A stretch of DNA of 64,000 nt from Verrucomicrobiota bacterium (GTDB lineage: Bacteria; Verrucomicrobiota; Verrucomicrobiia; Limisphaerales; UBA11320): positions 124,001 through 188,000 of the forward strand of contig JACQFQ010000006.1 in the NCBI GenBank assembly GCA_016199985.1, written 5' to 3'. A program made the position numbers and the translations under genes. This document shows, piece after piece, positions 7,459 to 38,990 of this stretch. The notes under the pieces were generated by a model that saw nothing but the letters and a program-made list of their open reading frames with translations, had not been told where the DNA came from and searched no databases. Position 1 is the stretch's first letter. The number at the start of each line of letters is the position of its first letter.

Positions 7459-7760
7459 AATTGCCGAAGAACAACCGTCATTGAAATCATCCGGTTTGTT
7501 CCTGTTCGCATTCGCAGGACCGCGCTCTTGGATCAATTGCCATTTCGATTTCAGCCTGTGCTCACGCGCATCCGCCTTGGCATAGTGGCGTTGGTTTTGG
7601 CGACGCCGTTTGTCCTCGGCCACGACACTCTCCTCGAATCAGGCACGGCGATGCTCGGCGATTTTTGTTCAACTTCGGAAAGCCTTTCTCTTAAATTCCA
7701 CTCGTTGGCAGCCTCGGGATCCACGTCGACGAAACGGGTTTGGCTGCCGACCATCCTGAC

Positions 7761-8616
7761 ATGCTGAACCTTTACGAGGGAGTCCGCACGAATCCGGGCT
7801 ACAACAAGCTCGAGATTGGTGATTTTCTTTTCGCCGAATACACCTGCGGAGTTGGCGACGAGAAGCTGGGGCTTTGGACGCACACGGATTATCTGGTGAA
7901 TGTTGTGACCGGCAAGAAGACCTGGCACACCGCCGAAGGGGTCTGGCGCGCCAATCCGGGCGAAACTTTGTTCTTCAAGAAGGGCGCGGCCATCGTGGAA
8001 CAGCACTTTGAAGTGGATTTCTGCCTGCTGATGTTCTTCATCCCGGACGACCTGGTCCGCAGCACCGTCCGGGAGATCGCCGGCAGTTTGGTCGCCGCCC
8101 CCGCCGGGATCGCGACAATCAAGTCGGCGGTGCGGGTGGAGAACGACACGGCTCTTTCCGCCTTCTTCCAGTCCATGCGCACCTACTTTGCAGGAAAGGA
8201 AAAGCCGTCCGAGCCACTGGTGCGTCTGAAAGTGAAGGAGCTGATCGTCAGCATTCTGACGAGCGGCCGGAATCCGGCGCTGGCGGTTTACTTCCGACTG
8301 CTCGGCGACGGCACGCTGCCTTCGGTGGTCGGGATCATGGAGGAAAACTTTCGCTTCAATCTGTCGCTAGAAGAATACGCCCGGCTGTGTCATCGCAGTC
8401 TGTCTTCCTTCAAGCGCGATTTCCAAACGAGCTTTCAGGAAGCGCCGGGCAAATGGCTGCTCCGAAAACGCCTCGATTATTCCGCCGCGTTGCTGCGCAC
8501 CTCGAAGATGAACGTCACGGAGATCGCCTTTGAAAGCGGCTTCGAGGACGTCTCCCATTTCAGTCGTGAGCATTTCGCCCGTTGCTTACCGACAGAATTC
8601 TTCCCTCGCCGACTGA
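7761..8616 (+). pseudogene. AraC-family regulator (ExsA-like), broken by a small deletion in the last helix-turn-helix
   Basis: From the ATG at 7761 the protein has a cupin-like N-terminal domain (~1-130: LWTHTDYLVNVVTGKKTWHT, WRANPGETLFFKKGA) and an AraC-type DNA-binding domain (SSFKRDFQTSFQEAPGKW, NVTEIAFESGFEDVSHFSR). After SHFSR the expected VFKERF segment is missing. One frame over, the sequence continues sensibly as SISPVAYRQNSSLAD and stops at 8614-8616, so a deletion of roughly a dozen bases with a frame change best explains the site. In the original frame the ORF runs on through non-coding DNA into the MarR gene, which makes it look like a 500-residue fusion. A paralogous, intact 3' end occurs at 12283-12507. 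It is either a decayed gene or an assembly error. Confidence 0.75.
8409..8568 (+). repeat. 160-bp duplicated AraC segment, copy A
   Basis: This segment encodes the middle of the AraC DNA-binding domain and is identical to 12283-12442 except for one base (GCCGGG versus GCCCGG). The flanks diverge sharply on both sides. It is a recent duplication or gene-conversion tract within two otherwise different genes. Confidence 0.9.
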
Positions 8617-8828
8617 CTCTCACAGTCAAAAGTTTGAACCTTGCGGCAAAGCATGGCCTGTCGATTTTCCGAATCATGCTTCCGGCTATTACAACAAGAG
8701 ACGATGATGCAAACGCAAACACACCCACACGTTCCGCTGTATTTGCGAGTCTCTCGGCCTGTTGCGAGAGCGGCCACATTCGTTGTCCAAGCGAAGAACT
8801 TGTTGACAACTTGTCCGAGCTGTCTCAT

Positions 8829-8843
8829 GTATATGCACGTTAT
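8829..8843 (+). promoter_or_regulatory. Probable MarR operator overlapping the marR-like start
   Basis: GTATATGCACGTTAT lies directly before the ATG of the MarR-family gene. Its exact reverse complement occurs at 9331-9345, before the next gene. A TTGACA at 8803-8808 is a possible -35 element, so the operator would cover the -10 region and the message could start at or very near the ATG. Paired sites that flank a MarR gene on both sides are typical for autoregulation plus target control. Confidence 0.6.
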
Positions 8844-9278
8844 ATGAATTTGACCGGCCTCATAAACGAATGCGCATGCTTAAAAGTTCGAACAGCAGCC
8901 CGCGCACTGACCAGGTTTTATGACGACGCCTTTCGTCCCGTGGGGCTGCGCGCCACGCAACTTTCTGTTCTCGTCGCTGTGGCGTTCGGCGAAGCTGTAT
9001 CCATCGCGTCTCTCTCGCGCCTGTTGGGAATGGATCGCTCGACGTTGACCCGGAACTTGAAGCCGCTCGAGGCAAAAGGTTTGGTTTCGCTGGGTCCTGA
9101 AGGTCGTCATCGGAGCCGAACGCTGAGCATCACATCCAAGGGAGACCAACTGGTCCGAACAGCCCTGCCCATTTGGGAAAAGACCCAGCAAACACTTCGC
9201 GAAGAACTGAAGAAACCGCATTGGATGAATCTTCACGCCGAGCTGGATCACGTTATCAAGTCAGCAGATGCGCTCTAA
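8844..9278 (+). CDS. MarR-family transcriptional regulator
   Basis: The 144-residue product begins MNLTGLINECACLKVRTAAR and carries the winged helix at ~45-115 (LRATQLSVLVAVAFG, SIASLSRLLGMDRSTLTRNL, PLEAKGLVSLGPEGRHRSRT, wing then LSITSKGDQL). Helical ends form the dimer interface expected for the family. The frame is open far upstream into the broken AraC gene, but the start at 8844 gives the normal MarR length and follows a plausible operator. MarR proteins usually repress their own gene and a nearby target in response to small phenolic or oxidative signals. The likely targets are the genes from 9420 onward (DUF4242 protein, SDR protein, AhpD-like protein). Confidence 0.85.
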   Translation: MNLTGLINECACLKVRTAARALTRFYDDAFRPVGLRATQLSVLVAVAFGEAVSIASLSRLLGMDRSTLTRNLKPLEAKGLVSLGPEGRHRSRTLSITSKGDQLVRTALPIWEKTQQTLREELKKPHWMNLHAELDHVIKSADAL

Positions 9279-9330
9279 CCATGAATTTTCAGAAACGATC
9301 ACTGAGATTGATTCAACATTTTTTTACTCC

Positions 9331-9345
9331 ATAACGTGCATATAC
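9331..9345 (+). promoter_or_regulatory. Second MarR-type operator, upstream of the DUF4242 gene
   Basis: ATAACGTGCATATAC is the exact reverse complement of 8829-8843. It lies 75 bases before the ATG at 9420, in the promoter region of the putative target operon. Confidence 0.55.
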
Positions 9346-9419
9346 ACCTAAGGATTTTGGTTGGGTGAATCAATCACCAGCCAGAAGCGCAGTTAACCAA
9401 TAAACAATGACGGAGTCCT

Positions 9420-9701
9420 ATGAAATACTTCATCGACACACATGACAAAACCAAGGGGAGCTTTCCCGCTGGCGAATTGACCGAAGAGCAGTTTCTCGCG
9501 CAATTCGACGAATTGGAAAAGGCCGCCGCGGACTTTGACGCGTTTGCGCATGCGGCGCACGTCAACCTCAAGGAGGGAAAAGCGTTTTGCTTTATGTGCG
9601 GACCGGACGAGGAGTCCATCCGCAAAGCGCACGAAGCGGTTCACCTTCGTTACGATTCAATCACCGAGGTCAAACGCGTGACCGGCGCGGATATGCGCTG
9701 A
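9420..9701 (+). CDS. DUF4242-family small protein (nickel-binding-like)
   Basis: The 93-residue product MKYFIDTHDKTKGSFPAGEL fits the alpha/beta DUF4242 family, ending in the usual GPDEESIRKAHEA and YDSITEVKRV pattern. Residues CFMCG at ~61-65 add two cysteines. Some members bind nickel, but no function is established here. A GGAG lies seven bases before the ATG. It is the first gene behind the downstream MarR-type operator, followed after 110 bases by an SDR gene and an AhpD-like gene, so it may belong to a MarR-controlled stress response. Confidence 0.75.
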   Translation: MKYFIDTHDKTKGSFPAGELTEEQFLAQFDELEKAAADFDAFAHAAHVNLKEGKAFCFMCGPDEESIRKAHEAVHLRYDSITEVKRVTGADMR

Positions 9702-9810
9702 GTGCTTCGGCGTCGCACGCCCCCAAAAGAGGAAGCAACGACCCATTTAAGACGATCGGTCGTCTTGAAAAAACCAAAGCGAAAACAAACCAAAAACATA
9801 CAAACAAAAA

Positions 9811-10608
9811 ATGAGCAATAGACTAAATGGCAAAGTGGCCCTGGTGACCGGGGGCAATAGCGGTATCGGCAGGGAAGCCGTCCAGCGCTTCCTGGAGGAA
9901 GGGGCGACGGTGTATTTGACGGGAAGAAATCCGAAAACGATTGAGGACACGGTGGAGTCCCTCGGCCGTGGGAAAATAGCGGGAATACCTTGTGATGCGA
10001 ATGACGCGCCGGGTTTCGTTCGAGTGCTGGAACGGATTCGGAAGGAGCAAGGCCGGCTTGATGTCCTTTTCCTGAATGCCGGCATCGCGGAGTTGACGCC
10101 GCTCGGGAGCACGACGGAGGAGCAAGTGGATCGGCTGCTTGATACCAACGTGAAAAGTGTCTTTCTCTCTGTTCAATCCGCCATCCCCTACTTTCCTGAA
10201 ACCGGCGGCGCGATTATTTTAAGCGGCGCATGGCTGGCAGAATGTGGCGCTCCGCTGCTACCTGTTGTTTCAGCCACGAAAGCGGCGGTTCGCAACTTTG
10301 CGCGCAGCTTCTCCGCGGCGCTGCTTGAGAAAAAAATCAGGGTCAACTGTGTCAGTCCCGGTGCGATCGCGACTCCCCTCTACCGCCGGCTCGGGTTGCC
10401 AGACGACCAGCTGAACGAATTGTCGAATCTGGTCGCAAGCAAAATTCCTTTGGGACAGTTCGGGACGGCCAGAGACATTGCTAATTGCGCGGTCTATCTG
10501 GCCAGCGATGAATCAAACTATGTTTTGGGAGCTGACTTCGTCGTGGATGGCGGATTCAGCCAGCTGCTATTCACTCGCACAAATGAGTGCCCCGTCCATC
10601 CAGATTAA
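9811..10608 (+). CDS. Short-chain dehydrogenase/reductase family protein lacking the catalytic tyrosine
   Basis: The 265-residue protein has a classical SDR Rossmann fold: cofactor loop TGGNSGIGR (~14-22), TGRNP after strand 2, structural motif LNAGIAEL (~89-96), and the C-terminal signature GADFVVDGGFS. The normal YSATKAAV active-site motif reads VSATKAAV (GTT at the tyrosine codon), so the Tyr is replaced by Val while the Lys is kept; the preceding Ser region reads ILSGAWL. Without the Tyr, ordinary hydride-transfer chemistry is unlikely. It could be a pseudoenzyme that still binds NAD(P), or a degenerating copy. It lies 26 bases upstream of an AhpD-like gene. Confidence 0.88.
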   Translation: MSNRLNGKVALVTGGNSGIGREAVQRFLEEGATVYLTGRNPKTIEDTVESLGRGKIAGIPCDANDAPGFVRVLERIRKEQGRLDVLFLNAGIAELTPLGSTTEEQVDRLLDTNVKSVFLSVQSAIPYFPETGGAIILSGAWLAECGAPLLPVVSATKAAVRNFARSFSAALLEKKIRVNCVSPGAIATPLYRRLGLPDDQLNELSNLVASKIPLGQFGTARDIANCAVYLASDESNYVLGADFVVDGGFSQLLFTRTNECPVHPD

Positions 10609-10634
10609 CAGAACAAACCAAATGAAAGGATCGT

Positions 10635-10940
10635 ATGTATAACAAGGAAAGCCTGACCAAATTGAAGAAGCTGAACGAACTCGCGCCGGAAGTGATGAAA
10701 GCCTTCTGGGCGTTCGACAAGGCCGCCGTCGCTGATGGCGGAATTCCCGTCAAATACAAGGAATTGATCGCTGTCGCCGTCGCCCTCACGACGCAATGCC
10801 CCTATTGCATTGAAATCCACAGCAACAACGCGCGCAAAGCCGGCGCGACGGACGCCGAATTGGCCGAAGCCGCGATGGTCGCCGCGGCACTGCGAGCCGG
10901 AGGAGCGGTCACTCACGCGACGCACGCGTTAGGCGGTTGA
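10635..10940 (+). CDS. AhpD/carboxymuconolactone decarboxylase-like protein, copy 1
   Basis: This 101-residue protein has the AhpD core helix with the redox motif CPYC followed by IEIH (~54-61), which supplies the Cys pair and His of the family. The family acts in alkylhydroperoxide reduction or related peroxidatic chemistry. GGAT precedes the ATG by a few bases. A close paralogue lies at 12627-12932, differing mainly near the C-terminus (GGAVTHATHALGG versus GAAVTHATHALLS), and both have a similar sequence (GTATGTATAACA) at the start. It probably belongs to the MarR-controlled group. Confidence 0.88.
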   Translation: MYNKESLTKLKKLNELAPEVMKAFWAFDKAAVADGGIPVKYKELIAVAVALTTQCPYCIEIHSNNARKAGATDAELAEAAMVAAALRAGGAVTHATHALGG

Positions 10941-10960
10941 GTTGAGTGTTTGGTATCCGA

Positions 10961-10993
10961 GCCCAGGGCTGGATCGCTCGATCCGCCCTGGGC
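10961..10993 (+). terminator. Long hairpin after the AhpD-like gene
   Basis: GCCCAGGGC and GCCCTGGGC flank GGATCG/CGATCC, giving a 15-bp stem with one bulged T and a two-base loop. No T-run follows, so it is either a weak or Rho-assisted terminator or an mRNA-stabilising end. Confidence 0.6.
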
Positions 10994-11038
10994 ATCGGGT
11001 TAGGCCAACAACGCATGCACTTTTGAAGGAGATCTAAA

Positions 11039-11857
11039 ATGCGGATTAAATTTCAGACAGCTTTGATTACTGGCAGCTCACGCGGATTGGGCCGTCAGAT
11101 TGCCGTGAAGTTGGCGAGGGAGGGCGTAAAGAAAATCGCGATTCATTATCGGACAGGAAAGTCCGATGCGGAGACGACTTTGTCTTTGATCGAGGCGGAG
11201 GGTGCGTCCGGGACTCTTGTGCAGGGCGATGTGGCCAACGCGTCAGGTGGGGAGAACATTGTGATGGAGGCGGCGAAGAAGCTTGGAGGCTGCGACATCT
11301 ATGTTCAAAGCGTCGTGCCCCGGCTGGGAGAGATCTATGAGCATGTGATGGCAACGGAACTTTCGCTGGAGAAGTGGCAGCTCGCGTTTGATACGCAGGC
11401 GCGGGCGTTTTTTGTTTGTGCGCGGACTGCGGCGAAATTCATGAGTGGTGGTGGGCGAATTATTGGGTTGTCTTACACGATGGGCGGACGGACCGGTGGT
11501 TGGCAACCCTGGGTGGGCATGGGATCGGCGAAGGCCGCGATGGACAGTATCAGCCGATATTTCGCAGTGGCGCTGGGGCGGCATGGGATTACGGTGAATA
11601 CCGTGAGCCCTGGATTCTCGGATGCGTCAACAGTGGTTGGGCAGACCCCGCAAGAGTGGCAGGATGCGATGCTGAAATGGGCGGAGTCGGGATGGACTCC
11701 TATGGGACGGCGAGGCACGCCCGCAGATGTTGCGGGTATTTGTGCGCTGCTGTGCAGTGATGAGGCGCGTTTTATGACGGGACAGGCGCTTACGGTGGAT
11801 GGTGGAGCTTGTTTGATGAATCCGCACTTTCCTTTGGCGCTTCAAGTTCCGGCGTAG
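11039..11857 (+). CDS. SDR family protein, enoyl-ACP reductase-like, with altered active site
   Basis: The 272-residue protein has the SDR cofactor loop TGSSRGLGR (~11-19) and the C-terminal signature TGQALTVDGGA. Its centre (GLSYTMGGRTGG, WVGMGSAKAAMDSI) resembles divergent FabI/FabL-like SDRs that use Tyr-(6 residues)-Lys. Here the position seven before the Lys is Trp (WVGMGSAK) and the position four before it is Met, so neither the classical nor the FabI-type Tyr is present. It follows an AAGGAG ribosome-binding site. Together with the protein at 9811 it makes two SDR proteins in 2 kb that lack the Tyr. The stretch is GC-poorer in third positions (GCG to GGG usage) than the neighbours. Confidence 0.85.
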   Translation: MRIKFQTALITGSSRGLGRQIAVKLAREGVKKIAIHYRTGKSDAETTLSLIEAEGASGTLVQGDVANASGGENIVMEAAKKLGGCDIYVQSVVPRLGEIYEHVMATELSLEKWQLAFDTQARAFFVCARTAAKFMSGGGRIIGLSYTMGGRTGGWQPWVGMGSAKAAMDSISRYFAVALGRHGITVNTVSPGFSDASTVVGQTPQEWQDAMLKWAESGWTPMGRRGTPADVAGICALLCSDEARFMTGQALTVDGGACLMNPHFPLALQVPA

Positions 11858-11874
11858 GGCTTTCTCTTGGTTGT

Positions 11875-12507
11875 ATGCGTCTCAGCGTCAAGCGCGTTTA
11901 CGAAAAGCCAGCGCGCGAGGATGGAACTCGCGTGCTGGTGGACCGGTTATGGCCGCGCGGCTTGACGAAAGAAGCGGCCGCGGTTGACGTGTGGCTGCGC
12001 GAGCTTGCGCCCTCCAATGATCTGCGAAAGTGGTTTCACGAGAACCGCGCGGCATGGACAGTTTTCCGGCGTCAGTATGCTCGTGAGTTGAGAAATCCGG
12101 AAGCAACGCGGGCGCTCCAACAACTCTACGAGCTGATGTCGCGCAAGAAGTCGATCACGTTGCTGTTTGCCTCGACAAATCTGGAACGCAATAACGGGGT
12201 TGCCTTGAAGAAAATGGTGGAAGGGGCGCGCAAACCGCCGACGGGCGCCGAGCTGGCGCGCGCGGCTCGCAGCCCGTCCTCGTTCAAGCGCGATTTCCAA
12301 ACGAGCTTTCAGGAAGCGCCCGGCAAATGGCTGCTCCGAAAACGCCTCGATTATTCCGCCGCGTTGCTGCGCACCTCGAAGATGAACGTCACGGAGATCG
12401 CCTTTGAAAGCGGCTTCGAGGACGTCTCCCATTTCAGTCGTGTGTTCAAGGAGCGGTTCGATGTGCCGCCGATGACCTACCGTCAGGCCGGCCCATGCGC
12501 CGAGTGA
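11875..12507 (+). CDS. Chimeric protein: DUF488 domain fused to the C-terminal half of an AraC DNA-binding domain
   Basis: From the ATG at 11875 residues 1-~118 are a complete DUF488 domain (SVKRVYEKP, LVDRLWPRGLTKE, FRRQYARELR, SITLLFASTN). After a short linker (GARKPPTGAELARAARS) the sequence switches to the second helix-turn-helix of an AraC regulator (SSFKRDFQTSFQEAPGKW to SHFSRVFKERFDVPPMTYRQ) and stops at 12507. The AraC part lacks its sensor domain and first HTH start. The junction coincides with the edge of the 160-bp direct repeat, so this is a recombination product rather than a designed fusion. The DUF488 half may still be functional. A looser similarity to the region after 8616 continues past the stop codon. 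Confidence 0.8.
   Translation: MRLSVKRVYEKPAREDGTRVLVDRLWPRGLTKEAAAVDVWLRELAPSNDLRKWFHENRAAWTVFRRQYARELRNPEATRALQQLYELMSRKKSITLLFASTNLERNNGVALKKMVEGARKPPTGAELARAARSPSSFKRDFQTSFQEAPGKWLLRKRLDYSAALLRTSKMNVTEIAFESGFEDVSHFSRVFKERFDVPPMTYRQAGPCAE
12283..12442 (+). repeat. 160-bp duplicated AraC segment, copy B
   Basis: Partner of 8409-8568 with 159 of 160 bases identical. It starts at the DUF488/AraC junction and ends where copy A suffers its deletion. Confidence 0.9.
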
Positions 12508-12626
12508 CCTGACCCGCCCAGTCAAATAGTTGAGCCGTGCAGCCAAGCGCGGCTTTTCTGCTTTTGGCATCGTGATTCCAGACAGTGCGACTGAACGCAT
12601 TGCTGAAACAGCGAACAACCCAACGT

Positions 12627-12932
12627 ATGTATAACAGCGAAAACCTGACCAGACTCAAGAAAATGGACGGCCTCGCGCCGGAAGTGATGAAGGCCTTTTG
12701 GGCTTTTGACAAGGCAGCCGTCGCCGAAGGCGCAATCCCGGTCAAATACAAAGAATTGATCGCCGTCGCCGTGGCGCTTACGACGCAATGCCCCTATTGC
12801 ATCAGCATCCACAGCGGTAACGCGCGCAGGGCTGGCGCGGTTGACGCCGAGTTAACCGAGGCCGGGATGATCGCGGCCGCTCTGCGCGCCGGAGCGGCTG
12901 TCACTCATGCGACACACGCATTGTTAAGTTAA
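12627..12932 (+). CDS. AhpD/carboxymuconolactone decarboxylase-like protein, copy 2
   Basis: A paralogue of the protein at 10635 with the same length (101 residues) and the same redox motif CPYC plus ISIH. The ATG at 12627 is chosen over an upstream ATG because it aligns with the start of copy 1 and with its context GTATGTATAACA. It follows the DUF488-AraC chimera, just as copy 1 follows the first SDR gene, which points to a segmental duplication of the AraC/AhpD locus. The likely role is peroxidatic or decarboxylase-type chemistry. Confidence 0.87.
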   Translation: MYNSENLTRLKKMDGLAPEVMKAFWAFDKAAVAEGAIPVKYKELIAVAVALTTQCPYCISIHSGNARRAGAVDAELTEAGMIAAALRAGAAVTHATHALLS

Positions 12933-12959: not shown

Positions 12960-13799
12960 ATGAAATCCCATCTCGATTGCACAACCATCCCCAACCTCGA
13001 AGCCGTCAAAGCCCGGCAGAAGGCGACCTGGGAAGCCGGCGACTTCGGCGAGATCGCCCGCACCATAGAAGATCTCGCCGAGGAATTCATGGCGCGGCAA
13101 TCCATCCCGGCCGGAGCGCAAGTGCTCGACGTGGCTTGCGGGACGGGGAATCTCGCGGTCATTGCGGCGCGTCGTGGTGGTGTCGTCAGCGGCATTGACA
13201 TCGCGGCCAACCTCATTGACCAAGCCCGAGCCCGCGCCGTCGCGGAAGGTTTGCGCATCGCCTACGAGGAAGGCGATGCCGAGGATCTGCCCTATGCGGA
13301 CGGCCAGTTCGATCTCGTCGTGAGCATGTTCGGCGTGATGTTCGCGCCGCGACCGAGCATCGCGACCGCAGAAATGCTGCGCGTGACCCGGCCCAGCGGA
13401 CGCGTCGCGATGGCCAACTGGACGCCCGAAGGTTTCATCGGGAAAATGTTGAAGGTCTTCAAAGCGCACCTGCCGCCACCACCCGCTGGCGTCCCGTCGC
13501 CGATGGGATGGGGTGACGAAGCCACGGCGCGCGCGCGACTGAGGCATGGCTTTTCAGACGTGCGCCTCACTCGTCGAATCGGGATGATGCGTTACTCGCT
13601 CCCGCCCGCCGAAACAGTCGAGTTTTTCCGTCAATACTACGGCCCGACGCAAAAAGCATTCGCCGCGCTCGATCCCTCCGGACAAGCCGCGCTGCGTCGC
13701 GACTTGGTGGAACTGCAAACCGCTCACAACACCGCCACAACTCTTGGCACGACCGAAGTCGCCGCCGAATACCTGGAAGTCGTCGCGGTCCGGGGATGA
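12960..13799 (+). CDS. Class I SAM-dependent methyltransferase
   Basis: The 279-residue protein has the seven-strand methyltransferase signature: motif I VLDVACGTGNLA (~56-67), the acidic end of strand 2 in GIDIA, EEGDAEDLPY (motif for adenine contact), and FDLVVSMFGVMFAP (~115-128). It resembles the UbiE/Coq5-like small-molecule methyltransferases. The substrate is unknown. It lies 27 bases after the second AhpD-like gene on the same strand and could be part of the same transcript. Confidence 0.88.
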   Translation: MKSHLDCTTIPNLEAVKARQKATWEAGDFGEIARTIEDLAEEFMARQSIPAGAQVLDVACGTGNLAVIAARRGGVVSGIDIAANLIDQARARAVAEGLRIAYEEGDAEDLPYADGQFDLVVSMFGVMFAPRPSIATAEMLRVTRPSGRVAMANWTPEGFIGKMLKVFKAHLPPPPAGVPSPMGWGDEATARARLRHGFSDVRLTRRIGMMRYSLPPAETVEFFRQYYGPTQKAFAALDPSGQAALRRDLVELQTAHNTATTLGTTEVAAEYLEVVAVRG

Positions 13800-21476: not shown

Positions 21477-21617
21477 GTAAGCAAAAACGTCAGCAACGGT
21501 GTACTAAAGGTGCTAGTTCTTGTAGAGGCGGTGTCGTGCTTGTGTAGCCCATGAAAATGGGTAATTTTGTCGCGGAAACGCAGCTTGAGGCGACCGATTC
21601 CGACCCTCGCCTCCAAC
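21477..21617 (+). repeat. Dispersed repeat family, copy 2
   Basis: Begins GTAAGCAAAAACGTCAGCAA and ends with a 34-bp block (21584-21617, starting CTTGAGGCGACCGATTCC) that is identical to 38957-38990. Between these ends the two copies diverge. I see no gene between 21344 and 21815. Confidence 0.7.
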
Positions 21618-31300: not shown

Positions 31301-33286
31301 CTACGGGATGCGCAGCCGGAAAAACCTGCTGCCGTTACCGATGGGAAGAGTGCGCGGATCGTCTGAACCGGGAACCGGAGTCCAAAGTGCGTTGGCATCC
31401 AACGTGGACGCGCTTTCCAAAATGGCGGTGGCAGACTCCGCTGGCCAGGACAACAGCATAGAGTTGCCCGAAAGCTGCATCTGCAATTTGAGCGCAGGCA
31501 CCGCTCGAACCAGCGCAAGGCTGTGAAAGTCTCCCCCCGTCACCGCCACCACACCATTCAATCCAGCCGGCACGGTGCTTTGACCGGCGCGGTTGTCTCC
31601 CCACGCCACGACGGTGCCGTTTGATTTGAGCGCCAGGCTGTGAAAGCCTCCCCCCGCCACCGCGACCACGCCGTTCAAATTAGCCGGCACGGTGGTTTGG
31701 TCAAAATTGTTCCATCCTCCCCACGCCACGACGGTGCCGTCGGATTTGAGCGCCAGGCTGTGATAGAATCCCGCCGCCACCGCGACCACGCCTGCCAGTC
31801 CAGCCGGCACTGTGGCAGGAACGTAGGCTGAACCGTTCCAAATGACTTCCCACGCCACGACTGCGCCATCGGATTTGAGCGCCAGGCTGTGATCGGCTCC
31901 CGCCGCCACGGCGACCACGCCAGTTAATACAGCCGGCACGGTGGCAGGAACGTTGGCTGAACCGTTATAAATTTTTCCCCATGCCGCGACTGTGCCGTCG
32001 GATTTGAGCGCCAGGTTGTGCGTGCCTCCCGCCGCAACCGCCATCACGCCAGTCAATCCAGCCGGCACGGTGCTTTGGCCATAAGAATTGTCTCCCCACG
32101 CCACGACTGTGCCGTTGGATTTGAGCGCCAGGCTGTGCAAGCTTCCCTCCGCCACGGCGACCACGTCAGTCAATCCAGCCGGCACGGTGACAGGAACGTA
32201 GCCACCAATGCCATTGTTCCAAATTCTTCCCCAGGCCACGACCGTGCCGTTGGATTTGAGCGTCAGGCCGTGACCGCTTCCCCCCGCCACGGCGACCACG
32301 TCATTCAATCCAACCGGCTCGGTGCTTTGGCCATAGTCGTTATTTCCCCACGCCACGACTGTGCCGTCGGATTTGAGCGCCAGGCTGTGATAGATTCCCG
32401 CCGCCACCGCGACCACGCCAGTCAATCCAGCCGGCACGGTGCTCTGGCCCTCATAGTTCCGTCCCCACGCCACGACTGTGCCGTCGGATTTAAGCGCCAG
32501 ACTGTGATAGCCTCCCTCCGCCACCGCGACCATGCCTGTCATTCCAGCGGGCATGGGCACGATGCTTTGGCCAGAAGCCTCGGATCCCCACGCCAGGATT
32601 GTGCCATCGGATTTGAGCGCCAGGCTGTGATAGATTCCCGCCGCCACGGCGACCACGCCAGTTAATCCAGCCGGGAGGGTGCTTTGGCCCGAACCGTTAT
32701 TTCCCCACGCCACCACTGTGCTGTCTGATTTGAGCGCGAGGCCGTGAGAGCCTCCTGCCGCCACCGCGACCACGCCAGTCAATCCAGCCGGCACTGTGGC
32801 AGGAGCGTAGCCTAAACCGTTCAAAATTGATCCCCACGCCACGATTGTGCCGTTGGACTGGAGCGCCAGGTTTTGAGCGTATCCCGCCGCCACCGCGACC
32901 ACGCCAGTCAATCCAGCGGGCACGGTGCTCTGGCCCTCATAGTTCCGTCCCCACGCCACGACTGTGCCATCGGATTTGAGCGCAATGCTGTGAGAGCTTC
33001 CTGCCCCTACCGCAACCACGCCATTCAATCCAGCCGGCACAGTGCTTTGGTGCGATCCGTTGTCTGCCCACGCGTTGTCTGCCCACGCCAGGACTGTGCC
33101 GTCGGATTTGAGCGCCAGGCTGTGAGCGCCTCCCGCCGCAACTTGCGAAAAGCGCGTGCCTGGTTCGAGGTAAGAAATGACGTGGTTGCCCCAACCGACG
33201 ACCGTGCCCGCGCCGGCCAGCGCATTCAGGGAAGCCAGCGCCAGCAGCACAACGAGACTGGTGTTTTTGTCTGTTTTGTTTTTCAC
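31301..33286 (-). CDS. Secreted RCC1-repeat beta-propeller protein
   Basis: A 661-residue protein read from a GTG, with a leader (KNTSLVVLLALASLNALAGA). About a dozen RCC1-like repeats of ~45-50 residues follow, each with HSLALKSDGTVVAWG, GQSTVPAGLTGVVAVAAG and similar wording. They should form one or two seven-bladed propellers. The C-terminus is a ~70-residue module ending SRFFRLRIP. The repeats are very similar at DNA level, as expected from recent expansion. Bacterial RCC1-repeat proteins of this kind are probably extracellular binding proteins; no enzymatic motif is present. Confidence 0.85.
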   Translation of the reverse strand: MKNKTDKNTSLVVLLALASLNALAGAGTVVGWGNHVISYLEPGTRFSQVAAGGAHSLALKSDGTVLAWADNAWADNGSHQSTVPAGLNGVVAVGAGSSHSIALKSDGTVVAWGRNYEGQSTVPAGLTGVVAVAAGYAQNLALQSNGTIVAWGSILNGLGYAPATVPAGLTGVVAVAAGGSHGLALKSDSTVVAWGNNGSGQSTLPAGLTGVVAVAAGIYHSLALKSDGTILAWGSEASGQSIVPMPAGMTGMVAVAEGGYHSLALKSDGTVVAWGRNYEGQSTVPAGLTGVVAVAAGIYHSLALKSDGTVVAWGNNDYGQSTEPVGLNDVVAVAGGSGHGLTLKSNGTVVAWGRIWNNGIGGYVPVTVPAGLTDVVAVAEGSLHSLALKSNGTVVAWGDNSYGQSTVPAGLTGVMAVAAGGTHNLALKSDGTVAAWGKIYNGSANVPATVPAVLTGVVAVAAGADHSLALKSDGAVVAWEVIWNGSAYVPATVPAGLAGVVAVAAGFYHSLALKSDGTVVAWGGWNNFDQTTVPANLNGVVAVAGGGFHSLALKSNGTVVAWGDNRAGQSTVPAGLNGVVAVTGGDFHSLALVRAVPALKLQMQLSGNSMLLSWPAESATAILESASTLDANALWTPVPGSDDPRTLPIGNGSRFFRLRIP

Positions 33287-38850: not shown

Positions 38851-38990
38851 GTCAGCAAAAACGTCAGCAAAGGTGTAATACCAGTGCTCGGTCGGGTAAT
38901 GACAGTGTTAGCTTGTGTTGCTCAACAAATCTGGCATCTTTTGCCTTGAAACGACGCTTGAGGCGACCGATTCCGACCCTCGCCTCCAAC
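38851..38990 (+). repeat. Dispersed repeat family, copy 3, upstream of the tyrosine recombinase
   Basis: Begins GTCAGCAAAAACGTCAGCAA and ends with the 34-bp block shared exactly with copy 2. It is preceded by two GCTCGGAAAAGT direct repeats (from 38827). Together with flanking sequence it fills the 480-base gap 38677-39155, in which I find no gene. Confidence 0.7.

Follow-up and report, generated by a model that had tools for sequence, protein, structure and literature searches.

This Verrucomicrobiota genome probably carries, side by side, two copies of an AraC-methyltransferase-AhpD module that diverged separately and were recently homogenized over 160 bases by gene conversion; both modules have decayed around this patch. 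The broken AraC gene of module A and the DUF488-AraC fusion of module B are real in the assembly. The analysis was based on a window of 64,000 nucleotides (positions 124,001 to 188,000 of contig JACQFQ010000006.1, assembly GCA_016199985.1), in which the locus contains the following features:

7761-8568, + strand: copy A of the AraC-family regulator, comprising the ExsA_N domain at the N-terminus and the greater part of the HTH region; reading frame uninterrupted up to the repeat end
8409-8568, + strand: repeat copy A, putative recombination tract; 159/160 identical to 12283-12442
8569-8616, + strand: remnant of the AraC tail of copy A, out of frame (alignment with relatives)
8623-8652, + strand: 30-base motif conserved downstream of AraC, copy A; putative operator (exact pattern match and alignment)
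8707-8722, + strand: residual methyltransferase start, module A (matches the start of this gene in the relative L025)
8828-8843, + strand: putative MarR site immediately upstream of the MarR start; a second, inverted copy at 9331-9346
8844-9278, + strand: MarR-family regulator, first gene of the module A cassette (Pfam MarR_2, E 2.4e-8, inside a 512-aa open frame)
9420-9701, + strand: SCO4226-like protein of the nickel-responsive family (Pfam PF14026, E 2.5e-9)
9811-10608, + strand: short-chain dehydrogenase (SDR) 1 (Pfam adh_short_C2, E 5.9e-53)
10635-10940, + strand: AhpD1, carboxymuconolactone decarboxylase family (Pfam CMD, E 4.4e-24)
11039-11857, + strand: short-chain dehydrogenase (SDR) 2 (Pfam adh_short_C2, E 1.1e-48)
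11875-12507, + strand: DUF488-AraC fusion; DUF488 to about 12249, AraC HTH region from about 12250
12283-12442, + strand: repeat copy B, putative recombination tract; pairs with 8409-8568
12519-12548, + strand: 30-base motif conserved downstream of AraC, copy B; putative operator (exact pattern match)
12627-12932, + strand: AhpD2 (Pfam CMD, E 1.7e-20)
12960-13799, + strand: methyltransferase of module B (Pfam Methyltransf_11, E 1.1e-22; 76% identity to L025)

The repeat and its flanks

The initial annotation described two 160-base segments with a one-base difference, and both were recovered at the same positions. The sole mismatch (position 8447) is a synonymous third position, and the longest exact run common to both copies is 121 bases. 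The repeats are direct, lie 3,874 bases apart and share the same codon phase. Within the 360 aligned columns of copies A and B, the longest run with at most one mismatch spans 160 columns, a length that none of 10,000 column permutations attained (largest 53), and third-position identity is 98% in the tract compared with 62% in the neighboring AhpD pair. The repeat is far beyond chance, and it is the sole exact repeat of more than 64 bases in the 388 kb of the genome that were sampled (contig C5 as a whole, 139 kb of C23 and 40 kb of C47).

The flanks of the repeat had been regarded as unrelated but are homologous on both sides. On the right, where both copies run on into an AraC tail and intergenic region that are shared but diverged, 96 of 167 aligned columns are identical (local alignment score 45 compared with 12.2 ± 2.1 for shuffled sequences, 0 of 500 shuffles reaching 45), and these flanks are homologous to relatives as well as to each other. 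On the left, the two copies agree at 19 of 33 bases once a one-codon gap is allowed; 7 of 9,138 33-mers sampled across the window score at least as well. Plain local alignment of longer left flanks (209 and 203 bases) did not score above shuffles (173 of 500 reach the score), and the homology on this side is therefore short, about 33 bases. Copy B contains approximately 11 further diverged AraC codons left of the repeat and is one codon shorter than copy A ahead of the tract; three of the four differences in the last five codons before the tract are third positions. The overall organization, a near-identical stretch between homologous but diverged flanks with a short left side, fits that of a gene conversion tract.

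Because AraC-like codons precede the repeat in copy B, the DUF488/AraC junction is located about 33 bases upstream of the repeat start rather than at the repeat start, where it had been placed initially. These upstream codons and the absence of an AraC-like tail after the DUF488 domain in 12 out of 12 DUF488 relatives rule out the initial placement. The repeat did not create the DUF488-AraC fusion. The locus serves as a warning that the flanks of a short exact repeat may look unrelated and yet be diverged homologs.

Relationships inside and outside the tract

The phylogenetic relationships of the two copies conflict between the tract and its surroundings. Within the tract, copies A and B are sisters (support 98/98), whereas the right-flank tree groups copy B with L025 (81/91) and not with copy A, although the support is modest and no fork in this tree reaches both support limits. 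The right flank of copy B is 73% identical to L025 and 58% identical to copy A, and outside the 160 bases the divergence between the two copies is similar to that between either copy and other genera. An AhpD gene is located downstream of each copy, as previously noted, and the two genes share 82% DNA identity over 299 bases. Their nearest relatives are found in other genomes (90% and 88% protein identity, compared with 82-84% to each other), in G018 for AhpD1 (90%) and, beside a methyltransferase, in G043 for AhpD2. In an AhpD tree with 18 rows each gene is nearer to another genome, whereas in a small tree (8 rows) the two are each other's nearest rows. An AU test did not reject AhpD1/AhpD2 sisterhood (p = 0.25 for DNA, p = 0.19 for protein), which leaves room for an old duplication.

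The conversion probably proceeded from B to A, a direction suggested by the 52 codons of the tract. Third positions are identical to L025 in 37 out of 52 cases within the tract compared with 119 out of 216 in the N-terminal part of copy A (Fisher p = 0.042), and a likelihood ratio of 10.8 favors a B-type tract. At four-fold sites the same comparison (13/20 and 35/76) is not significant (p = 0.21), and copy A is partly L025-like at third positions just left of the tract (17/26). The methyltransferase of module B is closer to L025 at four-fold sites (81/128) than the N-terminal part of copy A (35/76, p = 0.019); among four pairs of L025 and other relatives the same two genes differ by only -0.09 to +0.03.

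Gene content of the two modules

Copy A displays an ExsA_N domain (E 7.8e-27) together with an incomplete HTH domain (HTH_18 positions 1-65 of 80) and is 52-75% identical to the intact AraC proteins of 11 relatives. The VFKERF codons are absent directly after the repeat, in agreement with the initial annotation, and the gene is 17 bases shorter than in relatives, resulting in a frame shift. The stop codon of the tail (8614-8616) is out of frame, and the native frame resembles the L044 tail. Normal DNA binding by copy A is probably lost since the second HTH of the AraC domain is cut. The 512-aa open frame that joins copy A to MarR was rejected as a fusion gene and is probably due to chance, because a stop-free stretch of this kind arises in 102 out of 5,000 shuffles and MarR has its own start behind a probable MarR site (2 matches compared with 0.05 expected).

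AhpD1 looks like a member of a MarR-controlled operon. The possibility that a MarR-SCO4226-SDR-AhpD operon was carried in from elsewhere found no support: none of the examined loci (14 MarR and 16 AhpD loci, mostly about 3.3 kb and some ending at contig ends) contains both MarR and AhpD; a weak SDR match (25-30%) lies beside MarR in 6 of the 14 MarR loci. A plasmid origin of AraC was likewise unsupported, with no plasmid match to the gene at E 1e-30.

Copy B shares the reading frame of DUF488 and retains an intact AraC end, as initially described. The DUF488 domain is whole (PF04343 positions 1-120 of 121), with the inactive N3 subclade as its best Pfam match (DUF488-N3i, E 1.9e-33), and the AraC-type DNA-binding region is complete (HTH_18 positions 3-79 of 80). 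The fusion protein could still bind the 30-base motif kept by AhpD2 and the methyltransferase. Exact matches to this motif occur twice in this genome and once each in G610, G053, G081, and G054, always at the module. An Rfam search returned no convincing family (three matches up to E 5, none over the motif; the best, at E 0.22, is a eukaryotic snoRNA below its cut-off) and the predicted folds differ between relatives. These results do not favor an RNA, and the motif is therefore considered a putative DNA operator, one that makes the uncharacterized AraC-methyltransferase-AhpD module accessible to testing.

Origin of the locus and comparison with known systems

The most probable history starts with two separately diverged module copies that came to adjoin each other. 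A recent gene conversion, probably from B into A, would have homogenized 160 bases of the AraC DNA-binding region, and copy A would have lost 17 bases right at the tract edge, shifting the frame. A single repair event, homologous at one end and illegitimate at the other, may account both for the seamless left edge and for the bases lost on the right. Module A would also have lost its methyltransferase except for the start, with the MarR-SCO4226-SDR cassette now in its place, and a deletion of the N-terminal half of copy B would have brought its AraC HTH region into one reading frame with DUF488. The identity pattern, the homologous flanks, the motif in both copies and the missing pieces are observed; the direction and the order of events are inferred from them.

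An assembly chimera, in which two paths (loci or metagenome strains) were joined crosswise at the 121-base run so that the left part of A actually continues into the right part of B, is unlikely. The assembly consists of 78 contigs and its SSU rRNA was not found among the 26 candidates scored out of 165, a situation shared by many short-read metagenome bins, and the 388 kb contain no second long exact repeat to show whether the assembly passes repeats correctly. The cross join would also keep the codon phase and give a 290-aa AraC, the usual length in relatives, followed by AhpD2 and the methyltransferase. However, a swap can create neither the identical tract nor the junctions between tract and flanks, which lie outside the shared run; a common read of 150 bases is longer than the 121-base run, the lineage signal speaks against placing the N-terminal part of copy A in the B lineage, and the 3.87 kb middle piece would be left as a circle or in another strain. 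The same normal-length AraC formed by the outer halves, together with direct repeats in the same codon phase 3,874 bases apart, could be explained by a single-crossover (Campbell-type) insertion of foreign AraC-bearing DNA into an intact AraC-AhpD2-methyltransferase module, which would leave a 3.87 kb insert bounded by the tract on either side. This is quite improbable: a crossover between diverged copies leaves tracts as diverged as their parents and not 99% identical, so that a conversion patch would still be needed, the N-terminal part of copy A and the methyltransferase of module B do not resemble one lineage, and no integrase or plasmid gene was seen by Pfam among the proteins between the repeats.

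The initial annotation had proposed either an exchange between homologous segments, which fits the data, or a recent tandem duplication followed by deletions, which is unsupported since the copies are diverged outside the 160 bases. The co-oriented pairs of AraC pieces, motifs and AhpD genes and the pairing of the AhpD genes in the 8-row tree speak for duplication of the whole locus; the AU test is compatible with an old duplication. Recent copies would be alike over the whole unit, but identity is 58% in the flank and 80-82% in AhpD, the third positions of the AhpD pair are far more diverged than those of the tract, and in the 18-row tree each AhpD is nearer to another genome, making a recent duplication extremely improbable. 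It is also very unlikely that the modules now form a functional split, with copy A as sensor and the DNA-binding part of DUF488-AraC acting on both motifs as a rewired regulator. On this reading, recombination between the 160-base direct repeats could also delete 3.87 kb, rejoin a normal-length AraC beside AhpD2 and the methyltransferase, and act as a rare genetic switch in the population.

With conversion between two old modules as the preferred explanation, the locus is an ordinary genome patchwork and not a new system; it would exemplify how two regulator modules can end up as a broken regulator and an in-frame fusion of domains through a short conversion tract, minor deletions and a cassette. 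No published name was found for an AraC/ExsA-type regulator with a methyltransferase-AhpD module, and none of four same-genus genomes holds the module. The modules of relatives share the domain make-up, the gene neighbors and the motif after AraC; their AraC gene is single and intact, and in most cases a methyltransferase gene, an AhpD gene or both come next, whereas this genome contains two incomplete AraC genes, one of them fused to DUF488. Gene conversion between diverged bacterial homologs, as outlined in PMC12046097 and PMC13061034, likewise produces a short near-identical tract in diverged homologs of one genome; compared with those accounts, both host genes are incomplete here and 17 bases are missing right at the tract edge. 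Homology-facilitated illegitimate recombination, described in PMC3240628 for linear DNA entering the cell, combines a homologous and a non-homologous end as suggested here for the tract edges, but the donor in the present case was probably the neighboring copy.

The repeat and its flanks

The segments 8409-8568 (copy A, within an AraC gene with an ExsA_N domain) and 12283-12442 (copy B, within a DUF488-AraC fusion) differ at one base, as the initial annotation had it; 159 of 160 bases are identical and the mismatch is at 8447. The repeat is genuinely present in the assembly. The longest exact run shared by the two copies is 121 bases. Permutation of the 360 aligned A/B columns never reached this length (0/10,000, largest permuted run 53) and the repeat is far from a chance match. 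No other exact repeat >64 bases was found in the 388 kb examined of the source genome (6.83 Mb, 78 contigs). Two looser repeats were observed elsewhere in the window: an array of 13 repeats at 31512-33142 (period ~117-135 bases, each copy sharing 77-89% identity with the reference one) that looks like a repeat protein gene, possibly with RCC1-type repeats, and an 80-base repeat (21538-21617 and 38911-38990, 79% identity) with copies 17 kb apart.

The flanks, initially described as unrelated, proved to be related on both sides. To the right of the 160-base tract, 96 out of 167 aligned columns are identical and the local alignment score is 45 (shuffles 12.2 +/- 2.1, 0/500 reach 45); A and B share one diverged AraC end and intergenic region here. 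Immediately to the left, copy B retains ~11 AraC codons (19 out of 33 bases match copy A, with a one-codon gap), a score equalled by 7 of 9,138 33-mers sampled from the window; further left, the flank alignment is not above shuffles (173/500 reach the score). Because copy B carries these codons and none of 12 DUF488 relatives has an AraC-like tail (the proteins end soon after the domain), the fusion junction lies near 12250, upstream of the repeat start at 12283 where it had been placed. The repeat was thus partly misread, in its flanks and its junction.

Two modules in different states of decay

In all eleven distinct relatives compared, AraC is encoded by one frame (286-295 aa) whose end is unbroken, and eight of them have a methyltransferase and/or AhpD relative after it; the others are L030 (at a contig end), L031 (weak methyltransferase match only), and L049 (none). 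The module is sporadic: it was identified, with the source genome counted, in 6 out of 320 genomes of the order and 3 out of 387 of a phylum sample (E 1e-40), and at E 1e-30 in one out of five genomes of the family (the source genome alone), hence in none of four same-genus genomes. The short elements associated with the two modules are:

8623-8652: conserved ~30-base motif directly following AraC copy A
12519-12548: second copy of the motif, just after AraC copy B
8828-8843: 16-base site before the MarR gene
9331-9346: identical 16-base site in the opposite orientation, before the SCO4226-like gene

In copy A the ExsA_N domain is present and the HTH region extends as far as the tract, at whose edge 17 bases are missing, so that the tail is out of frame; the gene is indeed broken right after the repeat. 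The tail is still recognisable and its native frame resembles the tail of the relative L044. Beyond the motif, a methyltransferase is reduced to its first bases (8707-8722, cf. relative L025), and MarR, SCO4226-like, and SDR genes follow. The 16-base site (2 matches against 0.05 expected) is likely a MarR binding site through which MarR would regulate both its own gene and the SCO4226-SDR-AhpD1 genes. A single 512-aa open frame (7740-9278) takes in AraC copy A, the intergenic region and MarR up to its end; it is probably due to chance since a similar stop-free stretch arose in 102 out of 5,000 shuffles.

Copy B has lost the N-terminal AraC half and is joined in frame to DUF488, and it retains a nearly whole HTH region (positions 3-79 of 80), the motif, AhpD2, the methyltransferase, and the intact AraC end noted initially.

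The AhpD1 and AhpD2 proteins, encoded downstream of copies A and B, are about 82-84% identical (82% over all 101 residues, 84% over 99). AhpD1 is 90% identical to AhpD of genome G018, and AhpD2 88% identical to AhpD of G043, the latter beside a methyltransferase. The two are each other's nearest rows in an 8-row tree and not in an 18-row tree; their sisterhood was not rejected by the AU test (p 0.25 DNA, 0.19 protein).

Origin of the identical tract

Third-position identity between A and B is 98% in the tract and 62% in the AhpD pair. A and B are paired in the tract tree (98/98), and in the right-flank tree B pairs with L025 (81/91, modest), pairwise identities in this flank being 73% (B-L025), 60% (A-L025), and 58% (A-B). 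No SSU rRNA was found among the 26 candidates scored out of 165, a lack shared by many short-read metagenome bins; a crosswise assembly join through the 121-base exact run is therefore possible, and would yield a 290-aa AraC with AhpD2 and the methyltransferase behind it. Neither the identical tract nor the junctions bounding it could arise from such a join, and the lineage signal argues against it. Ordinary recombination between two regulator modules that have diverged and are decaying best explains the repeat, and the tract would represent a conversion.

At four-fold sites, L025 is matched more closely by the module B methyltransferase (81 of 128 positions) than by the N-terminal part of copy A (35 of 76; p 0.019); as controls, four pairings of L025 with other relatives gave a difference between these two genes of only -0.09 to +0.03. 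The tract appears to be of B type, matching L025 at 37 of 52 third positions; for the N-terminal part of copy A the count is 119 of 216 (likelihood ratio 10.8, p 0.042). Restricting the tract comparison to four-fold sites removes the significance (13/20, p 0.21), and in copy A the 26 codons close to the tract also show a fair resemblance to L025 (17/26). The direction was most likely from B to A, the weakest step of the argument.

A conserved motif downstream of AraC

The motif lies directly 3' of the AraC stop in most relatives and its core is present in all nine aligned (L025, L027, L029, L030, L044-L048); L031 and L049, left out of this alignment, showed no clear copy by eye. It occurs across Verrucomicrobiota genomes, with a less close version on a KSB1 MAG contig (L030). 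In a pattern search of seven genomes, exact matches were confined to the module: two in the source genome (at 8625 and 12521, each two bases into the 30-base motif) and one each in G610, G053, G081, and G054. G313 carries the motif with one mismatch and G063 has no match at its module. One-mismatch matches elsewhere were at noise level (four, versus three for the reversed control pattern). Its position and conservation suggest that the motif may serve as the operator for an AraC-methyltransferase-AhpD module that is as yet uncharacterised.
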